37,731 nucleotides of DNA from Betaproteobacteria bacterium (lineage in GTDB: Bacteria > Pseudomonadota > Gammaproteobacteria > Burkholderiales > Burkholderiaceae_C), in assembly GCA_028870715.1 (NCBI GenBank), contig JAGWOZ010000008.1:1-37731 (forward strand), written 5' to 3'. Shown here piece by piece: positions 2,388-33,418 of this stretch. The notes below the pieces were generated by a model. The model was not told where the DNA came from. It saw only the letters and a program-made list of their open reading frames with translations, and did not search any database. The translations under genes were made by a program, and so were the position numbers. The stretch's first letter is position 1. Each line of letters opens with the position of its first letter.

Positions 2388-2543
2388 TAGATGCTCGAAT
2401 AGCTCGGAAAATAGCATCTGGAATGAATTGTTGAAATTACAAGATTCTGACCTCAGTTCTGTTGACGGTGGATTCCAGGATCGATAGCCTGATGCTGTCG
2501 GCACGGCGCCAAGTTTTTGTGCTTGCATGAACCCCGCCCTATG

Positions 2544-2558
2544 TGATGGACCATAGCG
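2544..2558 (+). repeat. Left copy of 15-bp inverted repeat around crcB block
   Basis: TGATGGACCATAGCG here is repeated exactly, in inverted orientation, at 3660-3674. The pair encloses DUF190, crcB and the ISL3 remnant. The core is itself nearly palindromic (TATGG..CCATA), so it could be a transposon end, a regulator site or chance. No target duplication was recognised outside it. Confidence 0.5.
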
Positions 2559-2586
2559 CGAAAATTTCAGACTTGTTCGTCCCAGA

Positions 2587-2901
2587 TCAATCAGGGCACT
2601 GCGCTTGCCAGAAGACGATATGCCCGGCCGGCACCATCTGTTGGATGTGCGGCAGCACCGACGCCACCACTTCTGGGTCATCGTAGAACTCCAGCACAAG
2701 CGGCAGGTGTACGATCATCCGCAGCAGGTCGTCGGCGTGCACTTCGCCCCTGCTGCCGAACCCAGCGACGCCACGAAACATGGTGATGCCGTGCACTTTA
2801 TGCTGGTTGTGCAGCAGCTTGAAGACTTCCTCCATAAGGCTGTGGTTTTCGATCTTGTCACCTTCCTTGATGTAGATACGCACGATGGTGACTGTTTTCA
2901 T
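2587..2901 (-). CDS. DUF190-family protein, partner of the fluoride channel
   Basis: The 104-residue product begins MKTVTIVRIYIKEGDK and shows the ferredoxin-like small-protein pattern of DUF190 (RIYIKEGDK, ITMFRGVAGFG, LPLVLEFYDDPEVVASVLP). The family is often encoded next to crcB, and members have a PII-like fold. A regulatory or accessory role in fluoride export is suggested by context rather than shown. Its ATG (2899-2901) overlaps the crcB stop in an ATGA arrangement, so the two are translated from one message. Length and motifs look complete. Confidence 0.85.
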   Translation of the reverse strand: MKTVTIVRIYIKEGDKIENHSLMEEVFKLLHNQHKVHGITMFRGVAGFGSRGEVHADDLLRMIVHLPLVLEFYDDPEVVASVLPHIQQMVPAGHIVFWQAQCPD

Positions 2902-3281
2902 ACCGTGACTCCGAGGTTGCGTGACAGGTAAGCACCGAAGATCGCCGCCGCGACCGACAGCACCACAGAGCCGACCATGTACAAGCCGGCCTTGACCAAC
3001 TCGCCGTTTTCGATCAGGTTGAGCGACTCCAGCGAGAAGGTCGAGAACGTGGTGTAGGCACCCAGACCGCCGGTGAGGATGCCGGTGCGAAGCTCGGGGC
3101 TGATGTTGATGCGTTCCAGGGTTTCGAAAAACAGAAAGCCCATGAGGAAAGACCCCAGCACGTTGATCGACAGCGTGGCGAATGGAAAGCCGCGGCCAAG
3201 CACGCTTTGCACGGCGAGGGTTTGTCCATAGCGGGCATAGGCACCGAAAATGGCAAAGATTGCGATGTAGACAAAGGTCAT
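2898..3281 (-). CDS. crcB: CrcB/Fluc fluoride ion channel
   Basis: The 127-residue protein has four hydrophobic segments (about 1-14, 33-52, 66-86 and 98-120) and the family signatures GAYARYG near the N-terminus, GSFLMGFL, and GGLGAYTTFSTFSLE in the third segment. That last stretch carries the Thr-Thr-Phe-Ser pore motif of Fluc channels. Fluc proteins work as dual-topology dimers in the inner membrane and let fluoride leave the cell. The start ATG at 3281 lies close downstream of an ISL3 transposase relic. I looked for the fluoride riboswitch that often precedes crcB and did not find its conserved core. Full length; function is confident by family. Confidence 0.93.
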   Translation of the reverse strand: MTFVYIAIFAIFGAYARYGQTLAVQSVLGRGFPFATLSINVLGSFLMGFLFFETLERINISPELRTGILTGGLGAYTTFSTFSLESLNLIENGELVKAGLYMVGSVVLSVAAAIFGAYLSRNLGVTV

Positions 3282-3316
3282 GTCGAGTGGTCCTTAGTAT
3301 CGGGTTCTGTTGATTT

Positions 3317-3477
3317 TTAAGTGGGTCGCCGGGCATGAGGGATTGCATGGAGATCGAGCTTGCCGACGATCAAGAAGATGACGGTCTTGATGATGGAGTG
3401 ACGCCGCGAGTGCGGTGCTTGGCGGCCTGAAACAGGCTGTTGATACCGTCCAGAAATCCATGGACGCAGTGAGCACA
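3317..3477 (-). pseudogene. C-terminal relic of an ISL3-family transposase
   Basis: Read on the minus strand, one frame gives GFLDGINSLFQAAKHRTRG, and after a frame change the sequence continues SIIKTVIFLIVGKLDLHA...RRPT and stop. This matches the usual end of ISL3-group transposases (LEGINSLxQAAKxKARG ... IYLIAGKLDL). Only about 50 codons remain and at least one frameshift is present, so it is dead. It lies directly upstream of crcB, which suggests that the fluoride genes arrived with or beside an ISL3 element. Confidence 0.6.
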
Positions 3478-3659
3478 ACGTCGAGGCGGATTCATGACTG
3501 ATGTTCGTCAGCTCGGGATATTGGCGTGTCAGCAGTTGTGCATCTTGAGGTGTTGGTCATCCGGACGTTTGCCGTTTTTTGCACAAAAAGCTGTCTCGCC
3601 ATGCATCATCCCTTGTCAGATTGCGTGAAGGGATGCGCTATGCACCCTCTATGTCACGA

Positions 3660-3674
3660 CGCTATGGTCCATCA
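3660..3674 (-). repeat. Right copy of 15-bp inverted repeat around crcB block
   Basis: This is the exact reverse complement of 2544-2558. See the left copy for what the pair encloses. Confidence 0.5.
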
Positions 3675-3770
3675 TAGAAAGCGCACCGCGGCGGCGAATC
3701 CCCCGTCGTAGGCAAACGTGCTCGCCTGAGTGCGCGAGATGGTGACCATCCCTCAGGATGAGACGGGTTT

Positions 3771-3884: not shown

Positions 3885-5036
3885 CTACGAAAGCGCTGGG
3901 CAAACGCGCGCATGCAGGTGGACAAGATCCATCTGGCCGTGCGTATCGGTCTTTTGAAAGATCTGCTTCAGGTGGCTGCGGACCGTATTTTCGGACACGT
4001 TCAGCGAATGCGCGATCGTCGACAACGACTGCCCGGCGAAGACCAGCGAGCTGACCTTGGCCTGTGCCGAGGTCAGCTCGTACTGGCGCGCGAACACACA
4101 CGTGGCGGGGTCGTGCAGGGCGTGGCCCCCTCGAACAGTGACGAGAACCAGACCGCGGCGTACGCCGGTCTGGCGCATGAAAACCTGGCCCGCCGCACGC
4201 ACCACGGCTACGACAGGAGGCATCGGCGGCGCGCAAGCCAGCGTCACTACGCACGGTGAGGTGACAGCATGCGCCGGATCGTTCTGTGCCACATGCGCGA
4301 TCGTCTCGCGCAGCAGGCGCTGGTCAACGGGGCTGGCCGCCATCAGACGCTTGCCGTCCAGACACAGACCGATGCGCCCGTCAAGCAAATGGTCAGCGGC
4401 CGGATTGCGATAGATCGGCTCCGCGTCGGCGGTGACGAGGAACACCGGATTGGCGTCATGATCGGTCAGCGCCAGCAGCGCACGTGAAAGGTCGTCGGCC
4501 TCCTGCCAGCGCCATTGGTTCTCCAGCGACAGTGTGATGTGGTCAATCAGGACCGTCAGCTCCGTCTTCTCTCGCGTGCCGAAAGCGTCCTGCTCCTCAG
4601 CACGGTAGGCCGAAAGGAAGTAGGCCCCGGACGAACGCTGGGCAACGACGCCGCACAACCGGTGCAGCAGGCCGCGCGGCTGGAGGAAGCCGCGGTAAAA
4701 ATCGGTGCGCCGCAGGTCGCTGTTGCTGATCGCCTCGTCGCCGGCAATCACCCTCCCCGGCCTGTAGTCTTCAATCGACAGGAACCAGGGGTTGCGTGCC
4801 GAAAAGCCTGCCATGTCATGACTAAAGCATGCGTCGTTGGGTGATTCAAACAAGTCTGAATCGGCCCCGGTCGTGAACTCGTGATGCCCGAGAGTGACGA
4901 TGCGAGCGTCGAGATACTTGCGAATCTGCTCCAGTACGCCGGGCCATTCTGTGGCGCTGACGCTTGCTGCATGGATCGCGCGCACCAGTGAGGTCGCCGT
5001 GGGCTGGCATTCCTGATGAAACCTCGTCCTGGCCAT
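3885..5036 (-). CDS. LuxR-family transcriptional regulator
   Basis: The 383-residue protein ends in a typical LuxR/FixJ helix-turn-helix (about residues 318-378: LTSAQAKVSSLVFAGQS, then IAHSLNVSENTVRSHLKQIFQKT). The long N-terminal part lacks a receiver or autoinducer domain; around residues 185-235 the text NPVFLVTADAEPIYRNPAA is PAS-like. Large stand-alone LuxR proteins of this build are common in proteobacteria. The gene is divergent from the permease-kinase, sharing a 278-bp promoter region. It is a likely regulator of the amide operon through the palindromes at 3771-3831 and 14202-14243. Start ATG at 5036 gives MARTRFHQ. Family firm; target inferred. Confidence 0.85.
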   Translation of the reverse strand: MARTRFHQECQPTATSLVRAIHAASVSATEWPGVLEQIRKYLDARIVTLGHHEFTTGADSDLFESPNDACFSHDMAGFSARNPWFLSIEDYRPGRVIAGDEAISNSDLRRTDFYRGFLQPRGLLHRLCGVVAQRSSGAYFLSAYRAEEQDAFGTREKTELTVLIDHITLSLENQWRWQEADDLSRALLALTDHDANPVFLVTADAEPIYRNPAADHLLDGRIGLCLDGKRLMAASPVDQRLLRETIAHVAQNDPAHAVTSPCVVTLACAPPMPPVVAVVRAAGQVFMRQTGVRRGLVLVTVRGGHALHDPATCVFARQYELTSAQAKVSSLVFAGQSLSTIAHSLNVSENTVRSHLKQIFQKTDTHGQMDLVHLHARVCPALS

Positions 5037-5314
5037 TGAGTCAACTCCACCTACGCGCAGCGGCTAACGGACTAGCGATGAAGCTGTTGCTGGGCGGGTC
5101 GAGGCCGCGATGACCACCCCATGCCTCCATTCGCCAGCGTGCGCGGATTATTCCCCCCGCCCGCCTCGACTGTCAACCGCCAATGCGGTGGGTCAGCGCG
5201 GCATCACTCCCTCTTACGCCGGGTTGCCACAAGGCTCCAAGAGGCACGCTCGCCGCGTCAATCGAGTACCCTTGGTATACCGGGGCTGCGGAGCCCGATG
5301 GAGTGACCCGGACC
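5037..5314. promoter_or_regulatory. Divergent promoter region between LuxR gene and permease-kinase
   Basis: This 278-bp gap separates two genes transcribed away from each other, so it must hold both promoters. I see no copy of the CACC-N6-GGTG palindrome and no clear -35/-10 pair. An in-frame ATG at 5183 would extend the kinase by 44 residues that look non-coding; the start at 5315 is preferred. Confidence 0.45.
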
Positions 5315-8053
5315 ATGCTTCGAGTCAGACGTGAATACCAGTCATGGGTGGCCAATGAGTCGCTTGAGGACTATGCGTTGCGCTATGCGGCGAGTTCCTA
5401 CCGCCGCTGGACGCCCGGAGTCGTGGCCAACACTGCGATCGGCGGCATTTCCTTCCTCGCGCTCGAGGCCATCGGGGCCAGCATCACGCTGAGCTACGGA
5501 TTTCAGAACGCGCTGACGGCGGTGCTGGTTGTGTCGCTGCTGATCTTCCTAGTGAGCCTGCCGATTGCTTACTGGTGCAGCGTCGCTAACGTCGATATCG
5601 ACCTGCTGACCCGAGGCGCCGGGTTCGGCTACATCGGTTCGACCATCACCTCGCTGATCTACGCCTCGTTCACCTTAATCTTCTTCGCAATCGAGACCGC
5701 GATCTGGGCGCAGGCACTGCAGCTGGCCCTCGGTCTGAAGCTGGTCATCGGCTACCTCGTGTGCTCGTTGATAATCATCCCGTTTGTCTTCTTCGGCATC
5801 ACGTCCATCAACAAGCTGCAGGCCTGGACGCAGCCGATCTGGGTTGTGCTCATGTTGACGCCGTTCGGTTTCATCTTGTTCAAGGATCCTGCACTCCTGC
5901 ATGCATGGGCCACGTTCGATGGCCGCGCGGGGGGCGGAGGCTTCAACTTGCTTTTGTTCGGTGCAGCATCGGGCATGCTCTTCTCGTTGATCGCACAGAT
6001 TGGCGAACAGGCCGACTACCTGCGCTTCCTGCCCGAGCGCACGCCAGCGAATCGGCGAACCTGGTGGACCGCAATGCTGGTATCGGGACCCGGCTGGATC
6101 GTCATCGGGGCGCTCAAGATCAGCGCCGGCAGCCTGCTGGCAGTGTTGGCGCTGCGCATGGGCAGCAGCACGGCGCATGCGATCGAGCCGATCCACATGT
6201 TCGTCCATGCGTACGGGCGTGTGGTCGACGACCCGGTGCTGGCGTTGGCGCTGGCTACCGTCTTCGTCACCGTGTCGCAGGTCAAGATCAACGTCACCAA
6301 CGCCTATAGCGGATCTCTGGCGTGGTCGAACTGTTTCGTGCGGCTGGCGCACTTCCACCCAGGACGCGTGGTGTGGTTGGTGTTCAACGTGGTGATCGCG
6401 CTGCTGTTGGCGCTGTTGGGGATCTTCGAGACGCTACAGACCGTGTTGTCGGTGTATTCGACAGTCGCGGCCGCCTGGATCGGCGCGCTTGTGGCCGACC
6501 TAGTCGTACTCAAGCGAACAGGGATTAGCCCACCGTACATCGAGTTCAAGCGCGCACACCTGTACAACTTCAACCCAGTGGGCTGCGGAGCAACCCTGAT
6601 CGCCTCGGCCGTCGCGATTCTTGCCTACGCCGGGGCCTTCGGCGTGGTTGCCCAGGCCTTCTTCGGTTTCATCGCACTGGCCGTCGCATTCGTATCCGCG
6701 ATCATCATTGCTTACGCGACAGGTGGCCGCTACTACATCGCACGCCCGGACCAGCACTACCGTTGCAAGCCCGCGCGCACGCTGGTTGAATGCTGCATCT
6801 GCGAGCGTGAGTACGAGGCTCCCGATATGGTGCACTGTCCCTTCTACCGCGGGGCGTTGTGCTCGCTGTGCTGCGGCCTGGACCTGCATTGCCATGACTT
6901 CTGCAAGCGGCCAGAGGCACTGCGGGGCGAGGTGCCAGAAATCAACCTGGGAGGACTGCGCTTTCGGCCGCATATGCTACGTCGCGTCGGACGCTTCATA
7001 GGGCTGCTAAGCGTCACGGCTGCGCTGTTGGGGGCAGCGTTTCTGTTGACCTACCGCTTCATGGACCTGCCTGATGTGTCGTCTCACTTTGACCTGATCA
7101 ACGTGATGGTGCACCTGTATCTCGCTACGCTTGTGGTGGCGTCGCTGGGCATCTGGTGGATTGTGCTGTCGCACGAGAGTCAGGAGCAGTCGGAGCGCGA
7201 GCTGCTGGGGTCGATGCGCCACCTCGAACAGACCCGCAGGAATCTTGTTGAATCCGAGAAACTTGCCTCGCTCGGCGGCTTAGTGGCTGGCGTGGCTCAT
7301 GAAATCAACACTCCTGTCGGCATTGCTGTCAGCACGGCCTCGTACCTCAGCGAACGAACCCAGTCTGTGCAGGGCTTGGTGAAGGCGGGTCAGTTCGACG
7401 CAGTGGCGCAGGAGAAATACTTGCGCGACGCGGGCGAGTCGGCCCGGCTGCTGCTGTCCAACGCTAGGCGGGTGGCCCAACTGGTGCTGAACTTCAAGCA
7501 GCTCGCGGTGGATCGAATCAGCGAAGCACGGTGTCGCTTCGATCTGCGCGAACACTTTGAGGAAACGATTCGGGACCTCCGGCCGAAGTTGGTTGAAGCT
7601 GGCGTTGAGGTAAGCATCGAAGTTGCGCCGAGCATCCAGATGGATAGTTACCCAGTCTCGCTGGCGCAGGTGGTGACAAACTTGACGATCAACTCGCTGC
7701 AGCATGCGTTCGAGCCAGGGAGTCCGGGACGAATCGTGATTCGCGCCGAGCTGCGCGAAGGCAACGAGGTCCGCATTGTTTACAGCGACGATGGCCGAGG
7801 CATCGATCCCTCGCTGCTCGGTCGGGTCTTCGAGCCTTTCTTCACCACCCGTCGAATGATCGGCGGTAGCGGGCTCGGCTTGTATATCGTTAACCAGATC
7901 ATTACGCGCCAGCTTGACGGCTCCATCGCCCTCGAAAGCAACGTCGAGCGCGGCGCGCGTTTCGTGATGCATTTTCCCAGGGTGGCCCAGCAATCGCCGA
8001 ACGGTGGTCGCATCCTGGCCCCCTTGACGAGGAACCCCATCGATGAACCTTGA
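5315..8053 (+). CDS. Histidine kinase with an NCS1-type permease as sensor half
   Basis: A 912-residue protein with three parts. Residues about 20-480 resemble NCS1 nucleobase/hydantoin permeases (cytosine-permease-like), with about twelve membrane segments (YRRWTPGVVANTAIGG, DIDLLTRGAGFGYIGS). Residues 493-530 form a Cys/His-rich knot (CCICERE ... HCPFYRG ... CSLCCGLDLHCHDFC), probably metal binding. Two further membrane segments (about 555-610) precede a HisKA domain with H-box VAGVAHEINTP (His about 662) and a HATPase domain (NLTINSLQHAF; DDGRGIDPSLLGRVFEPFFTT; GGSGLGLYIV). All kinase boxes are intact. Start at 5315 is chosen because GGAG lies upstream and residues before it are not membrane-like. 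It overlaps the next gene by 11 bases. Substrate sensing or transport of an amide or nitrogen compound is inferred from neighbours. Confidence 0.88.
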   Translation: MLRVRREYQSWVANESLEDYALRYAASSYRRWTPGVVANTAIGGISFLALEAIGASITLSYGFQNALTAVLVVSLLIFLVSLPIAYWCSVANVDIDLLTRGAGFGYIGSTITSLIYASFTLIFFAIETAIWAQALQLALGLKLVIGYLVCSLIIIPFVFFGITSINKLQAWTQPIWVVLMLTPFGFILFKDPALLHAWATFDGRAGGGGFNLLLFGAASGMLFSLIAQIGEQADYLRFLPERTPANRRTWWTAMLVSGPGWIVIGALKISAGSLLAVLALRMGSSTAHAIEPIHMFVHAYGRVVDDPVLALALATVFVTVSQVKINVTNAYSGSLAWSNCFVRLAHFHPGRVVWLVFNVVIALLLALLGIFETLQTVLSVYSTVAAAWIGALVADLVVLKRTGISPPYIEFKRAHLYNFNPVGCGATLIASAVAILAYAGAFGVVAQAFFGFIALAVAFVSAIIIAYATGGRYYIARPDQHYRCKPARTLVECCICEREYEAPDMVHCPFYRGALCSLCCGLDLHCHDFCKRPEALRGEVPEINLGGLRFRPHMLRRVGRFIGLLSVTAALLGAAFLLTYRFMDLPDVSSHFDLINVMVHLYLATLVVASLGIWWIVLSHESQEQSERELLGSMRHLEQTRRNLVESEKLASLGGLVAGVAHEINTPVGIAVSTASYLSERTQSVQGLVKAGQFDAVAQEKYLRDAGESARLLLSNARRVAQLVLNFKQLAVDRISEARCRFDLREHFEETIRDLRPKLVEAGVEVSIEVAPSIQMDSYPVSLAQVVTNLTINSLQHAFEPGSPGRIVIRAELREGNEVRIVYSDDGRGIDPSLLGRVFEPFFTTRRMIGGSGLGLYIVNQIITRQLDGSIALESNVERGARFVMHFPRVAQQSPNGGRILAPLTRNPIDEP

Positions 8054-9323
8054 ATCCCAAGCCGTGGCTGATCCAGCGCCCTGGAAGGTCCTGCTGGTCG
8101 ACGACGAGCCCGCAGTGCACGATGTATCACGGCTCATCCTGGCCGGGCTGAGCTTCGAAGGCCACAATATCCAACTGCATAGCGCAGCATCCGCCGCGCA
8201 GGCGCGTGAGTTCCTGACCCGCCACGGCGACATGGCGCTTGTCCTGCTTGACGTCGTGATGGAGACCGATGATGCCGGCATCGGACTTGTGCAACATATT
8301 CGAGAGCAGCTCCCCGACAGCGACATGCAGATTGTGCTGCGCACCGGCCAGCCGGGTATGGCGCCGGAGCGAGACGTCTTGTTGCGCTACGAGATCAACG
8401 GCTACTGCTTGAAAACCGACGTCACGGCGCAGCGCCTGCACTCGATTGTCATTTCGGCACTCCGGAGCTATCGCTACGCGCGTTCGCTGCGTGCCATGCT
8501 GCAGCGCGCCGCGCCGAGTGCGATACCACAGCGGCTCGACTCGACGCGAAGTGCGCTGGCGATGGAACTAGCACAGTCACACGACGGCGACTTGGTTCTC
8601 ATGCAGGCGCAGCCCATAATCGTCCTAACCTCAAATCAAATCGCCGGCATCGAGTTGGCACCACAGTGGAGGACCTCTTTGGGTCTGTTGCCTGCCGAAC
8701 GGGTATGCGATGCCGTACCCGAAGGCCCAGTGCGGCGTCGGATCGTGCGGTGGCTACTCGCCCAAGCCTGCTTCTGGGCAAGTTCATGGCGCGCGATCCT
8801 CGGTGTATCCGTGCCGGTATCGATTCCTGTGATCGGCGAAAGTCTGGGTGATTGCGACACACTCGAGGCGATCGTCGACGCGGTGCGCGATGCCGGCTTG
8901 CAACGTGGGGCACTGGACCTGTTGGTGAGCGAAGCGACCTTGCTCAGTGGTCACCCAGATACGCGTGCCGCCGTGGAGACGCTGCGCGCCGTCGGCCTGA
9001 CGTTCACGCTGGCGGACTTTGGCGCGCAGACGATCTCGCTGCAACGCCTGAATCAACTGATTCCCGACCGCCTGAAAATCCACCGTCTTTTCGTACGCGG
9101 AGTGGTGAACGACCCCGAACGACAGGCGCTGGCGCGTTCGTTGATTGCGTTGGCTCAGACGCTGAACATCGTGGCCATTGCCGATGGACTCTCATCCGAC
9201 AGTGACGCGCAGTTTTTCAGGTGGGAGGGCTGCGATCTAGGGCAGGGCGATGCACTGGCCCCCGCATGCGCACCCGCCGACGTGGCCGAATTCCTGCAGC
9301 ATGGTAAGCGAGGCGTCCACTGA
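8043..9323 (+). CDS. Response regulator: receiver plus degenerate EAL-like domain
   Basis: The 426-residue partner of the permease-kinase. Residues 14-135 form a receiver with acidic pair VDDE (about 20-22), phosphoacceptor Asp70 (VLLDVVME), Thr101 and Lys124. The C-terminal region (about 185-420) keeps the outline of an EAL fold: LADFGAQTISLQRLNQLIPDRLKIHR corresponds to the DDFGTG...LKID block, and a GxxLGQGDALAPA ending is present. The catalytic residues are gone: no EAL/ELL motif, DDFG reads ADFG, KID reads KIH. It should therefore not cleave cyclic-di-GMP and may act as a binding or scaffold output. No DNA-binding domain is seen. The start overlaps the kinase stop, showing tight co-expression. 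Confidence 0.85.
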   Translation: MNLESQAVADPAPWKVLLVDDEPAVHDVSRLILAGLSFEGHNIQLHSAASAAQAREFLTRHGDMALVLLDVVMETDDAGIGLVQHIREQLPDSDMQIVLRTGQPGMAPERDVLLRYEINGYCLKTDVTAQRLHSIVISALRSYRYARSLRAMLQRAAPSAIPQRLDSTRSALAMELAQSHDGDLVLMQAQPIIVLTSNQIAGIELAPQWRTSLGLLPAERVCDAVPEGPVRRRIVRWLLAQACFWASSWRAILGVSVPVSIPVIGESLGDCDTLEAIVDAVRDAGLQRGALDLLVSEATLLSGHPDTRAAVETLRAVGLTFTLADFGAQTISLQRLNQLIPDRLKIHRLFVRGVVNDPERQALARSLIALAQTLNIVAIADGLSSDSDAQFFRWEGCDLGQGDALAPACAPADVAEFLQHGKRGVH

Positions 9324-9598
9324 ACTGCATCACCCCGAATTCCTGCTCAACCCGCGACTCGCGCCAGGCCGCAAGGTGTACCAACTTTCATCCGACAAGC
9401 CCGACTTCGTAGCTGTCTCGGCGTTGTTGAACAAAGAAGCAACAACTCAATGCATCAGGCTACGCGGAGGTGATCGCATCGCCGACGCTTATGGCGCCAG
9501 GTGCCGAAATTGAGCAGTAAATGCCGGCGTTTTGATCAGCTTTTTGCACAACCGTGCGCAGCATGCTCTTTTCGAATAGCAGCCCCTCTTGGGCCCTA

Positions 9599-10709
9599 GT
9601 CCACTGCGTCATTGAAAAAGCACCCCATTGATGGTGAAATGGGGGCATGGGCAAGATGAATCTGAGTGCAGCAGAGCGAAGTCAACTGGAGGCGATCGTG
9701 CGCAGTCGGACGATGCGTGTGGCCGATGTGCGCAGGTCGAAGTTGATCCTTATGCTTGAAGATGGCGAGTCGCGTGAAGCGATCATGCGCCGGCTCGAAT
9801 GTGACTCGCGATTTCTTTCACGCTGGTCGAGCCGCTTCCTGAGCGAAAGGTTGGGCGGTGTGTACGCGAGGCATCCCGGGCGCGCGCCGAAGCAGCCGGT
9901 GGCCAAGCTCGAAGCACGGGTTCTCAATCGCACGCTCAGACACAAGCCATCGGACGGCTCGACGCACTGGAGCAGCTACAAGTTGGCGAACGAACTTGGG
10001 GACGTGTCGGCGTCGACCGTGCAGCGTATCTGGCGCAAGCACAACATTCGTCCGCACAGGCTCGAGTGCCACATGATCTCCAACGACCCGGCGTTCGAGA
10101 TCAAGGCGGCGGATGTCATTGGGCTGTACTTGAACCCGCCTGCGCACGCGGCGGTGTTTTGCGTGGACGAGAAGACCGCGATCCAGGCGCTTGATCGCAA
10201 GGACCGCATGCTGCCGCTGTCGCGCGGGCGCGCCGAGAGCCATTCGTTCGAATACAAGCGCAACGGCACGCTGAGCCTGTTTGCGGCGCTCAACACAGCC
10301 ACCGGCGAAGTCCTGGGCAAGACCGCACCGCGCCACACCAGCGAACAGTTCGTTGCCTTTCTCACCGACATCGTGGCCAGCCAACCCGCACACCAGGAAA
10401 TTCATGTGATCTGCGACAACGTCAGCTCTCACAAAACCGAGCGGGTCGCGCAGTTCCTGGCTGAGCATGGCCATGTGCGCGTTCACTACACGCCCACGTA
10501 TTCGTCGTGGCTCAATCAGGTGGAGAACTGGTTCTCCCGCATTCAGCGTGACGTGATCAGCCGTGGCATCTTCACCTCCGTGAAGGATCTGGATCGCAAA
10601 TTGATGCGCTACATCCGCGCCCACAACAAAAATCCCAAACCCCTGAAGTGGAAGTACGACGATCCATCGCGCCGAATCCGCCCGGCGCCATCTCATTGAC
10701 GCAGTGGAC
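9599..10709 (+). mobile_element. IS630-family insertion sequence (1111 bp, TA target duplication)
   Basis: Terminal inverted repeats GTCCACTGCGTCATTGA (left) and GTCCACTGCGTCAATGA (right end, read on the minus strand) differ at one base. TA flanks both ends (9597-9598 and 10710-10711). The element lies in the MOSC gene in opposite orientation to it and carries one intact transposase. It is a different IS630 branch from the element at 1290: the transposase is a single frame and the ends differ. Confidence 0.9.
9647..10699 (+). CDS. IS630-family transposase, intact
   Basis: A 350-residue DDE transposase. An N-terminal helix-turn-helix region (about 8-75, RADVRRSKLILMLEDGESREAI-type pattern) is followed by a homeodomain-like linker (about 85-135). 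The catalytic triad is visible: Asp174 (FCVDEKT), Asp257 (VICDNVSSHKT) and Glu293 (NQVENWFSRIQ), with spacing normal for IS630. Length matches the family and no frameshift is seen, so it could be active. The alternative start MNLSAAERS three codons in is possible. Confidence 0.93.
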   Translation: MGKMNLSAAERSQLEAIVRSRTMRVADVRRSKLILMLEDGESREAIMRRLECDSRFLSRWSSRFLSERLGGVYARHPGRAPKQPVAKLEARVLNRTLRHKPSDGSTHWSSYKLANELGDVSASTVQRIWRKHNIRPHRLECHMISNDPAFEIKAADVIGLYLNPPAHAAVFCVDEKTAIQALDRKDRMLPLSRGRAESHSFEYKRNGTLSLFAALNTATGEVLGKTAPRHTSEQFVAFLTDIVASQPAHQEIHVICDNVSSHKTERVAQFLAEHGHVRVHYTPTYSSWLNQVENWFSRIQRDVISRGIFTSVKDLDRKLMRYIRAHNKNPKPLKWKYDDPSRRIRPAPSH

Positions 10710-11338
10710 TAGTGATCGCACCACACCGCGGGGTCGCGCAGATGCAGTCCACTGACGCACCGCCAATTTGCAATCGGCTACCGATCCAATTCTGCTCCAC
10801 CAACCCTACCAGGCTTGGCTCGGTCTCGATCACAAAATTCGGACGAAACCTCTTACATCCCAGTCGCCCGCTGCATTCCAGGCCTTCATTTGTCGCAAAG
10901 TTGCAGTTGTAACGACATGAATTGGAGCGACGAGTTGAAAGGTGCCAGGCGCAGCCACAAACTCAACCATCGACGGTGGCAACTGACTGAAATCTGGCAA
11001 GGGCTCGCCGGGCTCACGGGCAAACGTCGCAATCAGGTCCTGCAGCCATTGATCACCGCCAGCGTTATAGCGCCGATAAAACTCGGTATCCGACGCAGGC
11101 CGTCGCCGCTCCAATGTAACGTCGACACCCGTCAGTAGCGCCAGGCGCACATCAATGTCCGGACTGTCGGAGGCGATCTCAACACCATCGGCTAAGCTGA
11201 TCCGAACGTGTCCTATAGTCCCGTTCAGCGGCTCGCGGACGTAACGCGCCGTACACCGTAGCAAACTCGGATGTCGCTTGAAAACTGTCGTCAGCCGATT
11301 CCAGCGAAAATTAGCCGAGTCCGCAAAGTCGTGCCCTG

Positions 11339-11635: not shown

Positions 11636-12151
11636 CTATTTCAGGTAACCAATAAGCAGCAAATAACCTGGTAGCCAACCGGTCAGAATACCCTCGATGA
11701 TCGTAAGGCTACCGACGAACTTGGCGATTGGTTTCTTCATCACGAGAAGAACAAAAAACAGAAGCCACAAGATCCCCCATGCACCCCAACATAGACCGAA
11801 CCAGATACCCCAAGTGGTGGTTGCGGTTAATAGCGTTTGAATGGTCACCGGAACAGCTGTGATAGCGACAAACAAGCAGAACCAGCCCAATCCACGCCCA
11901 TCAGCCCCGTTGTAACGGTTTACCGCAACCCAAAAATAGGTGAATGTGAACAGAAGCGTAAGGGCAGCCCCTTTGATCGACCCCAAATCAGCGCCTGGAC
12001 CAAAGGCAAGGTACAGAGATACCAGCAGCGTGATTCCGCCTACGAAAATATCGATGACTGCAATTTCGTTATCGCCGATCCGACCAAGCAACCAGAGGCC
12101 GTTTAAGCACAAAACGGCCCCAACATAGAACAAAGCTAGTCCTAACAGCAT
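11636..12151 (-). CDS. amiS: AmiS/UreI-family amide or urea channel
   Basis: The 171-residue protein begins MLLGLALFYVGAVLCLNGLWLLG and has six to seven hydrophobic helices, including NRYNGADGRGLGWFCLFVAI and TWGIWFGLCWGAWGILWLLFF. Length and the Gly/Trp-rich pattern fit AmiS of aliphatic amidase operons and UreI proton-gated urea channels. It would let short amides or urea cross the inner membrane for the formamidase encoded 123 bp upstream. The longer frame starting at 12217 adds 22 charged residues and is rejected. Which amide it carries cannot be read from sequence. Confidence 0.87.
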   Translation of the reverse strand: MLLGLALFYVGAVLCLNGLWLLGRIGDNEIAVIDIFVGGITLLVSLYLAFGPGADLGSIKGAALTLLFTFTYFWVAVNRYNGADGRGLGWFCLFVAITAVPVTIQTLLTATTTWGIWFGLCWGAWGILWLLFFVLLVMKKPIAKFVGSLTIIEGILTGWLPGYLLLIGYLK

Positions 12152-12274
12152 GGTACATTCTCCAACAGTTATCGAATCATTCCGAGCACGCCCCGACCCA
12201 AAAGAGCCGGGACGCATTCGAGGCGTTTTCTAGTAACTTTTTGAATGTTTTCGTGGCATAAGGAAACCGCCGCG

Positions 12275-13531
12275 TTAATTCGATGATCTCGGCACTTGCA
12301 TGCCTTGCTTCACCTGGTGCGGAGCCCCCTTCGCTGAGGGGCGGATGTCGAAGTCGAAGATCGCTCTTGGGATGTAGATGGTTGAGCACGCATTCGGGAT
12401 GTCCACAACACCGGATAACCGGCCTTCAACCGGCGCTGTCCCAAGAATCATGTAGGCCTGAATATCGGTATAGCCAAACTTCATGAGATAGTCGATTGCG
12501 TGATTGCAGGCATTCATATACGCCAGCCACGAGTCCAGATAGTGCTGCTTGCCATTGCTGTCTACTGAGACCCCCGAGAATGCAATCCATTCGGAGTAAT
12601 GCGGATCGCGGATGCCGGGCATGAAAATGGCATTCTCACGGACACCATATTTCTCCATGCCGCCTTTGATGAGATCGACGTGCAGGTCCATGAAACCACC
12701 CATTTCGATCGCACCACAGAACGTGATCTCGCCGTCACCCTGGGAGAAGTGGAGGTCACCGAACGATAGCTTCGCTCCAGGGACAAAGACGGGGTAAAAC
12801 ACCCGACTGCCTGCGGTGAGATTCTTAATGTCCTGATTCCCACCGTTTTCACGTGGTGGAGCTGTTCGGGCGGCCTCGCGAGCGACCCGATCGAATTCAG
12901 CACCTTTGAGTGACCCCAGGATGGCGCTGTCGGGGAGTGGGGGGAGCGCCAGCGGCGGGACACGCATGGGGTCGGTCGCAATCAGCGCGGTTTCGCGCTT
13001 CGTCCATTTTGCGAGCAACTCGGCCGATGGTGCTGTGCCCATCAAGCCAGGGTGGTGGATGCCGGCGTAAGAGACTTCCGGAATGTGGCGTGAGGTGGCA
13101 ATGTCGCCGTTGAAGTCCCAGATCACCTTGTAGGCATCGGGGAATCGATCAGTGAGAAAGCCGCCGCCATTCTTTGTGGCGAACACACCCGTATATCCCC
13201 ATCCCATGCCGGAGAAGGGCCCAGAATCCTCCTGGTCGCAGGAGTCGATCTCAAGGATGTCGACGATGAGCAAGTCTCCGGGCTCAGCCCCCTCGACGTG
13301 GAAGGGCCCAGAGAGAACGTGCACGCCTGCAAGTGGGGCGTGCCGAACGTCATCTGCAGAGTTATCGTTCTTGATGGCACCGTCGAACCACTCACGGATA
13401 TCGGCGCGAAAGACCTCACCCGGTTTGATGGTTACGGCTGCGGGGATATCCGGGTGCCAGCGATTGTGACCAACAAGCTTCTGATCCTTGAACTTCTTGG
13501 TGTTGTCCAGTGGAAATAGATTCTTAGGCAT
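12275..13531 (-). CDS. fmdA: Formamidase/acetamidase (FmdA family)
   Basis: The 418-residue protein belongs to the FmdA_AmdA family, which hydrolyses formamide or acetamide to ammonia and the acid in the cytoplasm. Recognisable blocks are VHVLSGPFHVEGAEPGDLLIVDILEID, GWGYTGVFATKNGGGFLTD, and HHPGLMGTAPS. Others are LSFGDLHFSQGDGEITFCGAIEMGG and AYMILGTAPVEGRLSGVVDIPNAC. The middle blocks carry the conserved Asp, His and Glu residues of the metal or acid-base site. Length fits the family (about 400). It is the core enzyme of the minus-strand operon FmdB-fmdA-amiS-FmdB. ATG at 13531 has GAGG a few bases upstream. Formamide is the best guess for substrate. Confidence 0.93.
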   Translation of the reverse strand: MPKNLFPLDNTKKFKDQKLVGHNRWHPDIPAAVTIKPGEVFRADIREWFDGAIKNDNSADDVRHAPLAGVHVLSGPFHVEGAEPGDLLIVDILEIDSCDQEDSGPFSGMGWGYTGVFATKNGGGFLTDRFPDAYKVIWDFNGDIATSRHIPEVSYAGIHHPGLMGTAPSAELLAKWTKRETALIATDPMRVPPLALPPLPDSAILGSLKGAEFDRVAREAARTAPPRENGGNQDIKNLTAGSRVFYPVFVPGAKLSFGDLHFSQGDGEITFCGAIEMGGFMDLHVDLIKGGMEKYGVRENAIFMPGIRDPHYSEWIAFSGVSVDSNGKQHYLDSWLAYMNACNHAIDYLMKFGYTDIQAYMILGTAPVEGRLSGVVDIPNACSTIYIPRAIFDFDIRPSAKGAPHQVKQGMQVPRSSN

Positions 13532-13765
13532 TTTGAGACCTCATGAGAGTTAAGAGTTCAATGCTGAACATTACAAATCCGACAAGGCTATGATTGATTT
13601 CCAGATGCGCTCTCCTTTCCTTCAAGTACCAGGGATATAGCGCGGCGGATGTGCGAACAAATCCACGTGAGTTACACAAGCGATCTGCATATTTGTCCGG
13701 CATGCCTTGGACTTGCACTTGCCATTCGAAACAGGCGGCTCTGCTCATCTGCCCAACAAAGACCG

Positions 13766-14053
13766 TCATGGTCTGGGGAGCTGCCACAGATCAGGCGTCA
13801 TGGAAAGAGTGCGTTTGCCCGCACTGGAGGAAGGCACCGAGGTGACAACGTCCGGCTCATGGCGGCTCTTCTCCGCGTGATCCATCGCAGCGACCAAAGC
13901 ACTGTTTGACCCGCGCTTAACCATGCCGACCGAGAAGACTCGCCTCGCCTCCCTACCGCACACCGAACATGTGGCCAACTCCGGCGCCGTACCGAGCGGC
14001 CGAGTTACCTCGAACAGACCATCCTGATCACAACGATATTCGTATATGGCCAT
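13766..14053 (-). CDS. fmdB: FmdB-family zinc-ribbon protein, first gene of amide operon
   Basis: The 95-residue protein begins MAIYEYRCDQDGLFEVTRPLG and has one knuckle CSVCGREARRVFS, typical for FmdB. The first pair is incomplete (Cys8 only; the second Cys is replaced in RCDQDG), so zinc binding may be altered compared with the downstream paralogue at 11339. A strong Shine-Dalgarno (GGAGGAG) stands just before ATG 14053. It is the promoter-proximal gene, with the operator pair 150-190 bp upstream and fmdA 234 bp downstream. The region between the two genes (13532-13765) shows no credible gene. Confidence 0.78.
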   Translation of the reverse strand: MAIYEYRCDQDGLFEVTRPLGTAPELATCSVCGREARRVFSVGMVKRGSNSALVAAMDHAEKSRHEPDVVTSVPSSSAGKRTLSMTPDLWQLPRP

Positions 14054-14123
14054 AACGCTCCTCCTTCTCAGTCAACAACTTCACAATGCGGCGCGACCCC
14101 GACCCCGACCGAGGCCGAATGCG

Positions 14124-14143
14124 TCATCCGTTCACTCGGATGA
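14124..14143. promoter_or_regulatory. Inverted repeat in amide operon leader
   Basis: TCATCCG and CGGATGA are separated by six bases and form a 7-bp stem about 70 bp upstream of the first operon gene. It could be a regulator site or a leader hairpin; no run of T follows, so it is not a normal terminator. Confidence 0.35.
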
Positions 14144-14201
14144 CAGTAGGAATGCTAGGCAGGCGTCGATCCCGACGAATCCCATGAATCGATGAATGTG
14201 G

Positions 14202-14666: not shown

Positions 14667-14669
14667 ATG

Positions 14670-15320
14670 ATGGCGGAAGCCAACCCCTATTTGAACGCGC
14701 GCCGCGAGTGGGATGAGCGTTATGGCGATGCGCTCGCCCGCGCCAAGAGCTGGCGCTACGCGGCGATTGGTGCGCTGGCAGTCGCTGCCATCGCCGTCAC
14801 CGGCGTCGTCTTCATCGGTGCCCAGTCCAAGATTAAGCCCTATGTCGTGGCGATCGACAAGATGGGCAATCCGGTCGCTATGGCGCAACCCGTCTCGGGC
14901 GGCGCTGTCGATCAACGCATCATCGAGGCGCAGGTCGCCAACTGGATCTGGAACGCCAGAACCGTCATCCCGGACGCTACGGCGCAGAAGACGCTGATCC
15001 ATCGCGTCTACGCCATGGCGAGCAGCGACACCGCCGCCTACCTCAACGGCTACTACAGCAAGCATCCTCCGTTCGGCGACTTCACAGTGAGCGCCAACAT
15101 CACCAGCATCCTGCCCGTGAGCAAAGACACGTGGCAGGTCGGCTGGGATGAGATCCGGGTGAACGGCGGGCAGCCACAGCCGGTTGAGCACTGGAAGGCC
15201 GACGTCACCACGGGCATCGACCCCAAGCTCGCTGAGAGTCCAGAGGTCATGCTGGACAACCCGCTCGGGCTGTTCGTCAAGAACGTGACCTGGACGCAGG
15301 TCTTCTCCCAAGGCCAGTAA
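14670..15320 (+). CDS. trbF: TrbF, VirB8-like conjugal transfer protein
   Basis: The 216-residue protein begins MAEANPYLNARREWDERYGD, a TrbF signature, followed by one membrane anchor (about 27-48) and a periplasmic VirB8 domain (IKPYVVAIDKMGNPV, WIWNARTVIPD, WQVGWDEI, NPLGLFV). VirB8 proteins bridge inner-membrane and core parts of the type IV secretion channel. Two ATG codons stand in tandem at 14667 and 14670; the second has the better distance from the AGGAGG ribosome site. It begins the trbF-trbG-trbI block, spaced by 10 and 9 bases. Full length. Confidence 0.93.
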   Translation: MAEANPYLNARREWDERYGDALARAKSWRYAAIGALAVAAIAVTGVVFIGAQSKIKPYVVAIDKMGNPVAMAQPVSGGAVDQRIIEAQVANWIWNARTVIPDATAQKTLIHRVYAMASSDTAAYLNGYYSKHPPFGDFTVSANITSILPVSKDTWQVGWDEIRVNGGQPQPVEHWKADVTTGIDPKLAESPEVMLDNPLGLFVKNVTWTQVFSQGQ

Positions 15321-15330
15321 GGAAGCCACC

Positions 15331-16296
15331 ATGAAACTCTTCCCCTATGCCCTGGTGGCACTCACCATGGTGGCCAGCTCCGCCGTGGCCATGCCGAGCA
15401 CCACGACGATTCACCTGATCGGCACCCCGGACAAGGGCCGCACCAGCGACCAACTGGTCCACGGGGTCGCTCCGGTCCCGCTCTCATCGCGGGCTACGGA
15501 GGATGCCAGCCAGGAATGGCTGCAAACCGGGATTGCGCCATCTCTCGTCGGAACGAATGGTCAGGTGATGTACCCCTACGGCCAAAGCCGGCCCACGATC
15601 ACCTGCGCACCGCTGCACATTTGCGTCATCAACCTGATGGCCGGGGAGCACATCACCAACATCTCCATCGGCGACTCGGTGCGCTGGCTCGTGCAATCGG
15701 CCGGCGCCGGCGATCGCCCCGTGGTGGTGGTCAAGCCCACGGCCGCCGGTCTGGTCACCAATCTGGTGGTCACGACCGACGCCGGGCGGGTCTACTACAT
15801 GACGCTGGTGAGCGACGCCCATGACTACGTGCCGCTGGTCGGCTTCTACGACCCGCAGCAACTGGTGATCAACATGCAGCAGCAGGCAGCGCAGGCGCGG
15901 GCGGCCGAGCAGGCCAAGGTCGAGGCCAAGAGGAAGGCCGTGGTTGCGCCCATGGGCAGCATCGATCCGGCAAGCCTGGACTTCGACTTCACCTGCAAGG
16001 CGGATGGCGGCCATGCCGACCTTGAGAACGCCGATCTGAAGCCCGTGCGCGTCTTCGCCGGCGGCGGGCACACCTACCTGCAGATGCCGCCCGACATGAA
16101 ATACACCGACGCGCCAGCCGTGTTCAACGTCACCAACGGCCAGACTGAGCTGATGAACAGTCGCCTGGTGCATGGTTACTACATCATCGATGGCCTGCCG
16201 CAGACGTTCACACTGGTCGTCGGCGTCGGCAAGGATGCTCGCAGCGTGACCTGCCGGCACGGCCAGGCAGGTGGTGGCTGGTTCTCTGGGCGGTGA
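15331..16296 (+). CDS. trbG: TrbG, VirB9-like outer-membrane core protein
   Basis: The 321-residue protein has a signal peptide (MKLFPYALVALTMVASSAVA) and the VirB9/TrbG layout. The N-terminal beta domain has YPYGQSRPTITCAPLHICVINL and an ISIGDSVRWLVQSA block. A charged Gln/Ala linker follows (about 185-205). The C-terminal domain is VFAGGGHTYLQMPPDMK ... RLVHGYYIIDGLPQTFTLVVG. VirB9 forms the outer-membrane core ring with VirB10 (trbI, next gene). No defects seen. Confidence 0.94.
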   Translation: MKLFPYALVALTMVASSAVAMPSTTTIHLIGTPDKGRTSDQLVHGVAPVPLSSRATEDASQEWLQTGIAPSLVGTNGQVMYPYGQSRPTITCAPLHICVINLMAGEHITNISIGDSVRWLVQSAGAGDRPVVVVKPTAAGLVTNLVVTTDAGRVYYMTLVSDAHDYVPLVGFYDPQQLVINMQQQAAQARAAEQAKVEAKRKAVVAPMGSIDPASLDFDFTCKADGGHADLENADLKPVRVFAGGGHTYLQMPPDMKYTDAPAVFNVTNGQTELMNSRLVHGYYIIDGLPQTFTLVVGVGKDARSVTCRHGQAGGGWFSGR

Positions 16297-16305
16297 GGGC
16301 GCGTC

Positions 16306-17709
16306 ATGACTGAAGCGATTCAAGACGACAAGGCCCTGGACGAGAGTCTGCTCAACCAGGACCTCGATGGCGCCGCGGCGCCCAAGAAGGGAGTCCTGCG
16401 CATCAAGGGCACGCCGCGCGAAGGCGGAGCGCGCCTGAGCAGGAATTTCAAGAAAATCGCCTTCATTGGCGGCAGTGTCGTCGTCGGCGGGATGGTGATC
16501 GGCATTCTGACCGCCGGCAACAAGAGCCAGCCCGCCGAGAGCTCCGGGACGACCGCGATGGTCGGGCAGACCTCGCCGGACGTCGCTGCCATGCAGCGCG
16601 CGGCGCAGCAGCATTGGGGCGGGCCGGTGGCGGCGTCTTCCGATCCAACCGGCAACGCCGCATCTGAGCCCGTCGGCGCAGCCAGCAGCCCGGGCGCGCC
16701 TTTGAACCACCCGAACAACCCCGGCGCGGCATTGCACGCCAGCGGCGAGCCGCCGCAACTTACGCCGGCCCAGAAGTACCGCCGTTGGCTGATCGAGCAG
16801 CACTACAAGGCTCTGGAAGGCGCCACATTGGCGGACCAGACGGCACACTTGGCCACGACCAGCGCGGGGAGCGTGGGAATGATGGGCGCCATCCAGTCCC
16901 AGGCTGCGGCACCATCGCGAGCCGACGCACTGCGCAACCTCACGGCTCTGGCCGCAACGCCCCAGGGCGCGGCTGATCCCAACCTCCAGAAAGCCCTGGC
17001 GGCACTTCAGGGTGCCTCGGGTATGGTTGGCGGCGCCCAGAGCCCGCAAGCCCAGAACAAGGCGTTCCTGGTCAGCCAGGAGCGCAAGGCGTCGAGCGGC
17101 TACCTTGATGCGGCTGCGCAACCGCCCATCGGCAACCATGAACTGTTTGCCGGCGCCGTCATCCCTGCAGTCATGCTGACTGGTATCGACAGCGATCTGC
17201 CGGGCACGATCACGGCGCAGGTGCGGCAGACGGTCTATGACAGCCTCAATCCGGCCGTGGTGCTCATTCCCCAGGGCACGCGCATCATCGGCGCGTACAG
17301 CAGCGAGGTGGCCTATGGCCAGAGCCGCGTGCTGGTGGCCTGGAATCGGTTGATCTTCCCCAACGGCGCCATGATGGATCTGAAGGGAATGGATGGCACG
17401 GACGGGGAGGGCCAGGCCGGATTCCACGACGGGGTCGACAACCACACCATGCGAATCTTTGGCAGTGCTGTCTTGATGAGCCTGCTTGGTGTTGGCGCTC
17501 AGCTGAGCCAGCCGCAAAACGCCGGCGCCCTCAACACCCCGTCGGCGAGCCAGCAGGCAGCCTCAGCTCTGGCCCAGCAAATGGACAATGTCGGCACCAA
17601 CCTGCTCAACAAGAACCTGAGCATCCAGCCGACGCTGACGATCCGGCCGGGCTATGCCTTCAACGTGCTGGTGAATCGGACGATGATCCTGCCGCCATAT
17701 CCAGGGTAG
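16306..17709 (+). CDS. trbI: TrbI, VirB10-like core protein
   Basis: The 467-residue protein has a cytoplasmic N-terminus, one membrane helix (about 48-68), a Pro/Ala-rich periplasmic region, and the VirB10 beta-barrel domain. That domain has HELFAGAVIPAVMLTGIDSDLPG, IPQGTRIIGAYSS and RVLVAWNRLIFPNGAMMDL, with the C-terminus AFNVLVNRTMILPPYPG. VirB10 links the inner and outer membranes and responds to the ATPases. The gene is intact. Its last 180 bases recur, diverged by roughly 8 percent, at 28274-28461, where a second trbI 3' end sits without the rest of the gene. Confidence 0.95.
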   Translation: MTEAIQDDKALDESLLNQDLDGAAAPKKGVLRIKGTPREGGARLSRNFKKIAFIGGSVVVGGMVIGILTAGNKSQPAESSGTTAMVGQTSPDVAAMQRAAQQHWGGPVAASSDPTGNAASEPVGAASSPGAPLNHPNNPGAALHASGEPPQLTPAQKYRRWLIEQHYKALEGATLADQTAHLATTSAGSVGMMGAIQSQAAAPSRADALRNLTALAATPQGAADPNLQKALAALQGASGMVGGAQSPQAQNKAFLVSQERKASSGYLDAAAQPPIGNHELFAGAVIPAVMLTGIDSDLPGTITAQVRQTVYDSLNPAVVLIPQGTRIIGAYSSEVAYGQSRVLVAWNRLIFPNGAMMDLKGMDGTDGEGQAGFHDGVDNHTMRIFGSAVLMSLLGVGAQLSQPQNAGALNTPSASQQAASALAQQMDNVGTNLLNKNLSIQPTLTIRPGYAFNVLVNRTMILPPYPG

Positions 17710-21651: not shown

Positions 21652-22689
21652 TTGTTCCGAACAATCCAAGTCCTTTGGATCGGGTTGCTTATGCTGTGTA
21701 CGTTGGGCGGTTGCGCCTCGCTGCAAAGCCCTGTCGGTGCGCGGGCATCCGAAGCCGCGCTGAGCGCCGACGCCGCTCCGGCCATGGCATGGTGGGCGGG
21801 AGCTGGCGATCCGTTGCTGGCCCGCTTGATCGACAACGGGCTGGCGGCGGACCCGCTCCTGGGCCGCGAAGCCCGGGCCCTGGCCGAACTGCAGGCGCGC
21901 CCGCGGCACTGGCGCTTCCGTGTCGCCAGCTGGATCGACCGCATACTGCAGCAGACACCCGAAGCCCCCGAATTCCCCGAGGTGCAGGCCGTGCGACTGG
22001 CCGACGCGCGCCAGCGCAAGGCCGCGCGCATCGCACGCGCCTACGTCGAGGTGCGCCGCCTGCAAGCGAGCCTGGCCTTGCGCCAGGTGTTCCAGTATCA
22101 GTTCCACGACGATGCCGACTTCGCCCGCTGGCGCCACGAGGCCGGCCTGGTCTCGGCGGTCGACGGCGGGCTGGCGGCCTCGCTGGTCGGCGTCAATGCC
22201 GGCGCGCTTGCCGACATTCGCGCTCGCTTGGCCGCGGCCGAGGCGACGCTGGCGCGGCGTGCGGCGCTTGCGCCATCGCAACTGGCGTTGTGGCTTGACG
22301 ACGGCGCGCAGGTGCCACGGCTCGACGCCGACGGCGCGGCCGCGGCGGCGTGCGACGACGCGCGAGCGGCAGGCCCGCGCGCCGCGCTGACCGAAGCAAG
22401 GGAGCGCGAGGGCGCGCTGCCCAAGCTCGAGCGCGACGCCGAACGCACCGCGGACGACGCCCGCGCGGCCTACCGCCTGGGGACCGGCGATTTCGCCACC
22501 CTGTACGTGGCGCAAACTGCAGTATTGGCGGTGCGCGAAGCACGCATCGCCGCCCAGGCGCGCCGCGCGCGCGCGGCGATCAACCTGTGGACGGACGCAG
22601 GTCTGCGCAGGAACCAGGCCGGGCTGCGCGAACCGGCGCGCAGCCCGGCCGGCGACGTGCCGATGGCAGCCAGAGACGGCCGTGGCTGA
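21652..22689 (+). CDS. TolC/NodT-like outer-membrane lipoprotein (short)
   Basis: Starting at TTG 21652 the product (345 residues) has a lipoprotein signal FRTIQVLWIGLLMLCTLGGC with lipobox LGGC. ATG 21691 would leave too short a signal. The body has WWAGAGDPLLARLIDNGLAADPLL, then long Ala/Arg-rich helices (KAARIARAYVEVRRLQASLALRQ; DDARAAYRLGTGDFATLYVAQTAVLAVREARIAAQ). Both are typical of outer-membrane efflux proteins, including the GxxDxxxLL-like motif near the end. It is shorter than the usual 450-500 residues, so part of one repeat may be missing. The stop overlaps the adaptor start by 8 bases. It would be the outer-membrane channel of an exporter. Confidence 0.75.
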   Translation: MFRTIQVLWIGLLMLCTLGGCASLQSPVGARASEAALSADAAPAMAWWAGAGDPLLARLIDNGLAADPLLGREARALAELQARPRHWRFRVASWIDRILQQTPEAPEFPEVQAVRLADARQRKAARIARAYVEVRRLQASLALRQVFQYQFHDDADFARWRHEAGLVSAVDGGLAASLVGVNAGALADIRARLAAAEATLARRAALAPSQLALWLDDGAQVPRLDADGAAAAACDDARAAGPRAALTEAREREGALPKLERDAERTADDARAAYRLGTGDFATLYVAQTAVLAVREARIAAQARRARAAINLWTDAGLRRNQAGLREPARSPAGDVPMAARDGRG

Positions 22690-23881: not shown

Positions 23882-23918
23882 CGCAGCCACTGCGCCAGCC
23901 ATTGACCTTCACGACACC

Positions 23919-25448: not shown

Positions 25449-25469
25449 GTAACCGCGCACGCATACGCC

Positions 25470-31822: not shown

Positions 31823-31823
31823 C

Positions 31824-32786: not shown

Positions 32787-32850
32787 AGAGCCGATCGGTT
32801 GATAGACTAGCAGCCGCGATTATTGCGTTGAGATTTTTTGGTGATTAATT

Positions 32851-33318: not shown

Positions 33319-33418
33319 TCATTCTGGCATTTGACTGAGGTGCGGACAACGTGATTGCGACACGTGTTGTCGCTTGGAGCCGCTAGTCTTCTTCGAGTCC
33401 ATAACCCAGGAGAAGCAC

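Follow-up and report, generated by a model that had tools for sequence, protein, structure and literature searches.

The window, our term for the whole stretch of DNA analysed here, comprises 37,731 nucleotides from a Betaproteobacteria bacterium (GenBank assembly GCA_028870715.1, contig JAGWOZ010000008.1, positions 1 to 37,731 of the forward strand). It encodes a histidine kinase whose N-terminal half is a permease, followed by an overlapping gene for a response regulator that joins a receiver (REC) to a degenerate EAL domain. We propose, with a probability of about 60%, that the pair is a two-component system whose sensor derives from a transporter and detects small amides, and urea in some relatives. 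The two genes and their parts are arranged as follows.

5315..8053, forward strand: permease-fused sensor histidine kinase, 912 amino acids
5315..6745, forward strand: NCS1-fold permease domain, kinase residues 1-477
6791..6907, forward strand: eight-cysteine knot, residues 493-531, between the permease and the transmembrane hairpin
6968..7174, forward strand: two further hydrophobic helices (transmembrane hairpin) at about residues 552-620 of the predicted model, their membrane nature judged from sequence
7232..8014, forward strand: histidine kinase core, about residues 640-900, with the H662 codon at 7298-7300 and an HATPase_c domain
8043..9323, forward strand: REC-EAL response regulator, 426 amino acids, overlapping the kinase gene by 11 bases
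8082..8492, forward strand: receiver domain of REC-EAL, phospho-acceptor D70 at 8250-8252 (Response_reg E=1.2e-8)
8583..9263, forward strand: EAL-fold domain without the full catalytic set, residues 181-407 (EAL E=1e-36)

Linkage to amide and urea genes

Downstream of the sensor genes lies an amide operon, in which the fmdB-like gene, fmdA and amiS form one row in the same direction.

9596..10712, forward strand: insertion sequence, presumably of IS630 type, between REC-EAL and the amide operon (DDE_3 transposase 9647-10699)
11636..12217, reverse strand: AmiS/UreI-type amide/urea channel (PF02293 E=1.6e-57)
12275..13531, reverse strand: formamidase FmdA (NF045496, 669 bits against a cut-off of 500; PF03069)
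13766..14053, reverse strand: FmdB-like small protein, upstream of fmdA (56% by tblastn to the FmdB-like open reading frame of locus L197, E=7e-31)

FmdA thus passes the NCBIfam equivalog cut-off, and the name FmdB-like denotes resemblance to the L197 reading frame by tblastn, not a family assignment.

Relatives of the permease-kinase were found in 56 of 398 genomes sampled across the phylum at E<=1e-5, 52 of them at E<=1e-100 and the remaining four as weak or fragmentary matches only, and in 42 of 250 genomes of the order at E<=1e-60. The fused gene occurred at 64 places outside the window's own genome, and 39 of these were taken with their surroundings (11-20 kb each), a stand-alone permease at locus L079 being excluded from the count. 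Six query genes were sought there (FmdA, AmiS, AmiF, urease alpha, UrtA and the amide/urea ABC binding protein), and the controls were 40 stretches, each of 20 kb, taken from 20 genomes that bear the kinase, 13 of which also supplied loci among the 39. At least one query gene was present at 38 of the 39 fused loci and in none of the 40 control stretches. The sole miss, L047, lies at a contig edge, and FmdA of that genome is encoded on another contig. Among 80 named loci, 72 carried at least one query gene, and seven of those that carried none (L081, L089, L093, L107, L110, L115 and L158) offered less than 14 kb of sequence; four loci (L041, L043, L047 and L046) enter both counts, in the 80 as L091-L094.

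The same association was seen within the genus: of its 25 genomes, the eight with the permease-kinase, and none of the 17 others, have FmdA (E about 1e-172); six of these 17 yielded only distant FmdA matches near 1e-20, and some assemblies are incomplete. The neighbouring enzyme differs by family, being FmdA, a nitrilase-type AmiF or urease, with the Urt urea transporter in some cases, and the substrate class is constant. We regard this constancy across different enzymes as the strongest argument for an amide or urea ligand. The initial annotation of the window had suggested that the kinase belongs to a transport-coupled amide or nitrogen-source sensing system and should stand beside amide genes in other species; the linkage supports the sensing role and the co-occurrence, and the permease domain may still transport.

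A plasmid search gave 342 Klebsiella records that match the permease domain, one of which was examined in detail (AP022158.1, IncFIB/IncFII): it carries the permease-kinase (L193) with an ABC transporter and an AmiF formamidase. Annotations among the matches listed were ATP-binding protein, response regulator, ArcB, PotE, hybrid kinase, or none.

Fold and kinship of the permease domain

The permease half had no direct match in Pfam, NCBIfam or PDB sequence searches. Against PF02133 the window's domain gave no match at E<=10, so the curated cut-off was not reached, and a profile of 28 fused permease domains alone matched no PDB sequence. The NCS1 assignment was made by fold and profile-profile comparison. 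The structure predicted for residues of the N-terminal half shows the NCS1 fold, as in cytosine and hydantoin permeases, and among the chains listed in the fold comparison those that we take to be of SLC5 type ranked below NCS1. In hhalign, the fused domains aligned to three stand-alone permeases at 99.85% (E=8.7e-31, 425 columns), and the two of these that were scanned match PF02133; PF02133 was matched by two of 30 rows, the same number as the stand-alone rows that match it (two). By these comparisons the permease domain is a distant sequence relative of the NCS1 permeases, in agreement with the NCS1-type body first assigned to it, and since the PF02133 cut-off was missed we call it an NCS1-fold relative rather than a PF02133 member. 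No Pfam match to an SLC5 body or STAC linker was found at E<=1, yet Pfam misses the NCS1 body too.

The domain is tightly conserved: across 116 sequences, 109 of its 478 positions reach 98% or more. As a lead only, position 390 is a candidate amide-to-urea switch site, with Gly there in 89 of 91 amide-linked sequences and another residue in 11 of 13 urea-linked ones. Two stand-alone permeases were also noted: one in Arthrobacter (L195:7881-9608) that is 44.7% identical to the sensor domain and has a knot-like FExPDM stretch in its tail with most cysteines lost, and an NCS1 permease beside a carbon-nitrogen hydrolase gene (L079:8948-12167) in a genome that also has a fused sensor.

The cysteine knot and the kinase core

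All 51 homologues compared, which come from proteobacteria and cyanobacteria, keep every one of the eight cysteines at residues 493-530. With a profile built on the knot, 42 places were found in 38 of 299 genomes, and all of them adjoin permease matches in the same frames (compared by eye). Since every one lies within a permease-kinase frame, the knot looks like a family-specific domain, in the position that STAC holds in CbrA; it may bind metal. In the kinase core, HATPase_c matched at E=7.2e-24, and HisKA scored 16.6 bits, below the cut-off of 26.9. The DHp histidine and the ATPase boxes are present, and H662, N789 and N793 were invariant in all 51 kinases, so that a cysteine-rich knot and a full kinase core do share one chain, as initially described. 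No PAS match was found in the window's kinase with Pfam.

A degenerate EAL response regulator

To follow the residues of the regulator, we compared 26 REC-EAL proteins that are 38-100% identical to the window's; three cyanobacterial REC-MarR rows and L089 (a 168-residue frame) were left out of the 30. The acidic pair, phospho-Asp, Thr and Lys of the receiver are intact in all 26. The EAL fold is also kept (PF00563, profile positions 9-235 of 236), and its catalytic set is lost: the metal Asn is kept in none of the 26 (Pro in 25, Arg in one), the metal Glu in three, the first Asp of DDFG in one, the base Glu in four and the Arg of ExLxR in one. Still kept are the Glu of the EAL motif (20/26), the Lys (19/26), the second Asp (25/26) and the final Gln (26/26); these are the roles that we take the EAL motif residues to have. 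With these catalytic and metal residues lost, the domain was not classed as a phosphodiesterase, and the residue pattern strongly indicates that REC-EAL cannot hydrolyse cyclic di-GMP (c-di-GMP). The overlapping gene is therefore what the initial annotation took it to be, a receiver joined to an EAL domain without catalytic residues.

Mean conservation was 0.76 for REC, 0.51 for the N-terminal half of EAL and 0.65 for its C-terminal half, in which a block comprising F391, W394, E395, G396, C397, Q401 and G402 is kept at 85% or more of the 26. Catalysis is lost while another surface is kept, which suggests a binding role for the EAL domain. In the 250 genomes of the order, the sole match spanning both REC and EAL was the window's own. 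Two short frames, the 168-residue response regulator of L089 and a 627-residue kinase of L119, are possible truncations or assembly faults.

The LuxR-type partner and its regulatory DNA

A regulator gene is divergent from the kinase gene, and the gap between the two holds a short conserved block.

3885..5036, reverse strand: LuxR-type regulator lacking a receiver (GerE E=1.7e-9)
5170..5180, forward strand: short block CTGTCAAYCGG in the LuxR/kinase gap

In all 27 named loci of the REC-EAL branch, two of them cut off by contig ends, such a LuxR gene stands next to the kinase in divergent orientation, and it was matched in three of the 53 remaining named loci. The window's protein has the GerE helix-turn-helix (PF00196), and its structural model places two sensory-type domains ahead of it. 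From the model we read these domains as GAF-like and PAS-like; whole-chain fold matches were weak, the best TM-score seen, 0.69, being normalised by a single-domain target. In one genome (G444, locus L197), the same LuxR type (43%) occurs with an FmdB-like gene and FmdA, and no permease-kinase was detected in this 96%-complete assembly. Because the regulator keeps this company where no kinase was detected, LuxR is likely the direct regulator of fmdA, with REC-EAL as its modulator; the arrangement also fits LuxR acting alone.

The block CTGTCAAYCGG was found at 10 or 11 of 11 positions in 12 of 26 LuxR/kinase gaps and in one of 520 shuffles, in a post hoc test whose pattern was picked from six of the same 26 gaps; the window as a whole has one match against 1.42 expected. 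When ten loci were searched for words common to this gap and the region upstream of fmdA, the best match beat all three shuffles in two (L088 and L106), by an excess of one base each and with unlike sequences. In alignments of fmdA upstream regions, no block was conserved outside the genus apart from the start site, and a scan for a sigma-54-type site found none.

Four outputs on the permease tree

Output classes were assigned by tblastn over 116 tree rows, with Pfam scans of single examples. The permease-kinase is followed by REC-LuxR in 61 rows, by REC-EAL in 30, by a second kinase in 16 and by REC-MarR in three cyanobacteria (L116 at 12869-14146, by Pfam scan; L115 and L136, by alignment), and six rows have no assigned output. 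In the REC-LuxR class, the scanned kinases of L048 and L066 have a further REC of their own. Of the second kinases, L050 was scanned and is a REC-histidine kinase, and L108, L109 and L123 align in the kinase part only. In two other clades, the outputs that were scanned proved to be receivers that bind DNA. The permease tree, which is of a quick kind with several long branches flagged and which omits L091-L094 (same contigs as L041, L043, L047 and L046), requires three changes for the output classes, the minimum, and at least four for amide versus urea linkage. The window's sequence groups with that of Rubrivivax L082 (89% identity), apart from the seven other kinase-bearing members of its genus, and this grouping fits acquisition of the permease-kinase by transfer.

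Proposed mechanism and alternatives

We propose that formamide or a similar amide of short chain length, or urea in some relatives, would bind the NCS1-fold domain from outside, and that the resulting movement would pass through the eight-cysteine knot and the transmembrane hairpin to the kinase. The kinase would then phosphorylate the receiver of REC-EAL, as the gene overlap and the intact residues suggest. In the last and least certain step, phosphorylation may alter the contact of REC-EAL with the divergently encoded LuxR-type protein, which may in turn switch the fmdB-like–fmdA–amiS operon. In other clades the output wired to the same sensor is either a receiver that itself binds DNA, as REC-LuxR or REC-MarR, or a second kinase. 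The sensor part of this reading is well founded, and the route from REC-EAL to the operon is less so: for the way in which the signal leaves the degenerate EAL protein, a question raised at the outset, the evidence narrows to one candidate, contact with the LuxR regulator linked to it.

Several observations weigh against the proposal. The full-length locus L120 (Nitratireductor) has the kinase and a second kinase with none of the six query genes in 21 kb, and in the window itself the sensor and the amide operon are parted by the insertion sequence. CTGTCAAYCGG was present in none of 26 fmdA upstream regions of 320 bases, and the search for a motif shared by these regions and the LuxR/kinase gap found none, which leaves a common operator unsupported. 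REC-EAL could also have a target other than LuxR.

More tentatively, and at rather less than even odds, we consider that the family is an exchangeable transceptor: a receptor for amides or urea, derived from NCS1 and carrying an eight-cysteine coupling domain of its own, that has been joined to four different outputs. In the window's branch, the phosphorylated dead EAL would control the ligand-sensing GAF/PAS-LuxR protein by contact, and outside and inside signals would both be needed to switch amide breakdown.

Two other accounts of REC-EAL seem unlikely to us. The degenerate EAL may serve as a receptor for c-di-GMP, in the manner of FimX or LapD, in which case the amide signal and c-di-GMP together would steer biofilm or motility and not the fmd operon. 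The retained fold, final Gln, EAL-motif Glu and Lys would suit such a receptor, but the ExLxR Arg, which is important for c-di-GMP binding in FimX, is almost always missing, the metal Asn has become Pro in nearly every protein, and a LuxR gene is linked in all 27 named loci of the branch. Alternatively, REC-EAL may be a phosphate sink or an inactive leftover, with the kinase acting on a distant receiver or on transport alone, and with LuxR responding independently to a ligand of its own. The kinase-less arrangement in G444 and the lower conservation of the EAL N-terminal half are in keeping with this account, yet the C-terminal block F391-G402 would hardly be expected under neutral decay.

It is improbable that, instead of amides, the permease senses ammonium or one of the classical substrates of NCS1, a nucleobase or hydantoin, and that the amide genes are only part of a general nitrogen regulon: it shares its fold with cytosine and hydantoin permeases, but its neighbours are amide or urea genes at 38 of the 39 loci, in surroundings where nucleobase and hydantoin genes were not searched for. 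Equally doubtful is a knot that senses metal or redox state on a permease scaffold, for although the eight cysteines are invariant across two phyla and the knot was found in this family only, the permease is also tightly conserved and the linked enzymes have a common substrate class.

Surroundings of the sensor locus

Trb-type conjugation genes at 45-1022 and 14667-17709 (the C-terminal part of TrbL; the VirB8, CagX and TrbI families) flank the sensor-amide block, which, with its insertion sequences, looks like cargo within a conjugation cluster. The inverted ends of the element at 9596-10712 are 29 bases long and 83% complementary. A CrcB-type gene (2898-3281) lies between imperfect 24-base inverted repeats (2535-2558 and 3660-3683); an Rfam scan of the window found no family at gathering score, and none for the CrcB region (2535-3683). 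Further along are a row encoding an HlyD-type protein, an MdoG glucan-synthesis protein and a glycosyltransferase (22682-27266), and a possibly defence-type cluster with a DUF2779/Cas4-like protein, a WYL-domain protein and a double AAA ATPase (30341-36292).

Comparison with known systems

In the open-access literature we found no description of an NCS1-fused kinase; subscription papers may describe such a family. The comparisons that follow draw on excerpts of the cited papers. CbrA and CrbS/MxtR are SLC5-STAC sensor kinases, and CbrA is reported as a histidine carrier (PMC13022988, PMC7918813) and termed a rare transceptor in a 2026 preprint (PMC13022988). The window's sensor shares with them the order of a LeuT-fold transporter domain, a small linker domain and a histidine kinase; it differs in its NCS1-type body, in the eight-cysteine knot and hairpin at the linker, in giving no PAS match and in its amide/urea linkage. 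Ks-Amt5 is an ammonium transporter-histidine kinase in which ammonium binding is reported to trigger the kinase, with transport lost (PMC5764959), and it too is a nitrogen-source transporter that has become a kinase sensor. It has the Amt fold and is a trimer, and the excerpted text names no response regulator, whereas the regulator and a likely target operon are linked to the window's sensor. GrtK, the ammonia sensor of Burkholderia glumae, was rejected as a match, being a protein of 427 amino acids with a PilS-like membrane part (PMC12918730).

On the output side, BluF of Escherichia coli is a degenerate EAL protein that antagonises BluR (PMC3509220), and by analogy REC-EAL may work like it, as an EAL domain without phosphodiesterase activity that acts on a transcription factor. 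BluF is light-switched through its BLUF domain and BluR is MerR-like, whereas the window has a phospho-receiver and a LuxR-type protein. PvrR/RocR-type regulators (NF052596; PDB 3sy8) have the same REC-EAL domain order; against PvrR the window's protein scores 71 bits (cut-off 580), and its catalytic set is lost. FmdA/AmiF and HAAT/Urt amide/urea uptake operons have the same enzyme and transporter types that stand beside relatives of the kinase, and in their records the kinase is annotated as an ATP-binding protein or hybrid histidine kinase and a permease sensor is not named. An apparent permease-kinase locus is given as a hybrid kinase with urtABCDE in the excerpted text of PMC13296017.

Transporter-built kinases are few, and the permease-kinase extends them to a further transporter fold, for which a ligand class is linked. 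The family has a coupling domain of its own, and both its output and its ligand class have been exchanged in nature; it makes it possible to test how a transporter fold relays binding to a kinase and what role degenerate EAL domains play at the output. The sensor works like the CbrA and Ks-Amt5 transceptor kinases and the output may work like BluF, and by the tests made the system was classed with none of these.

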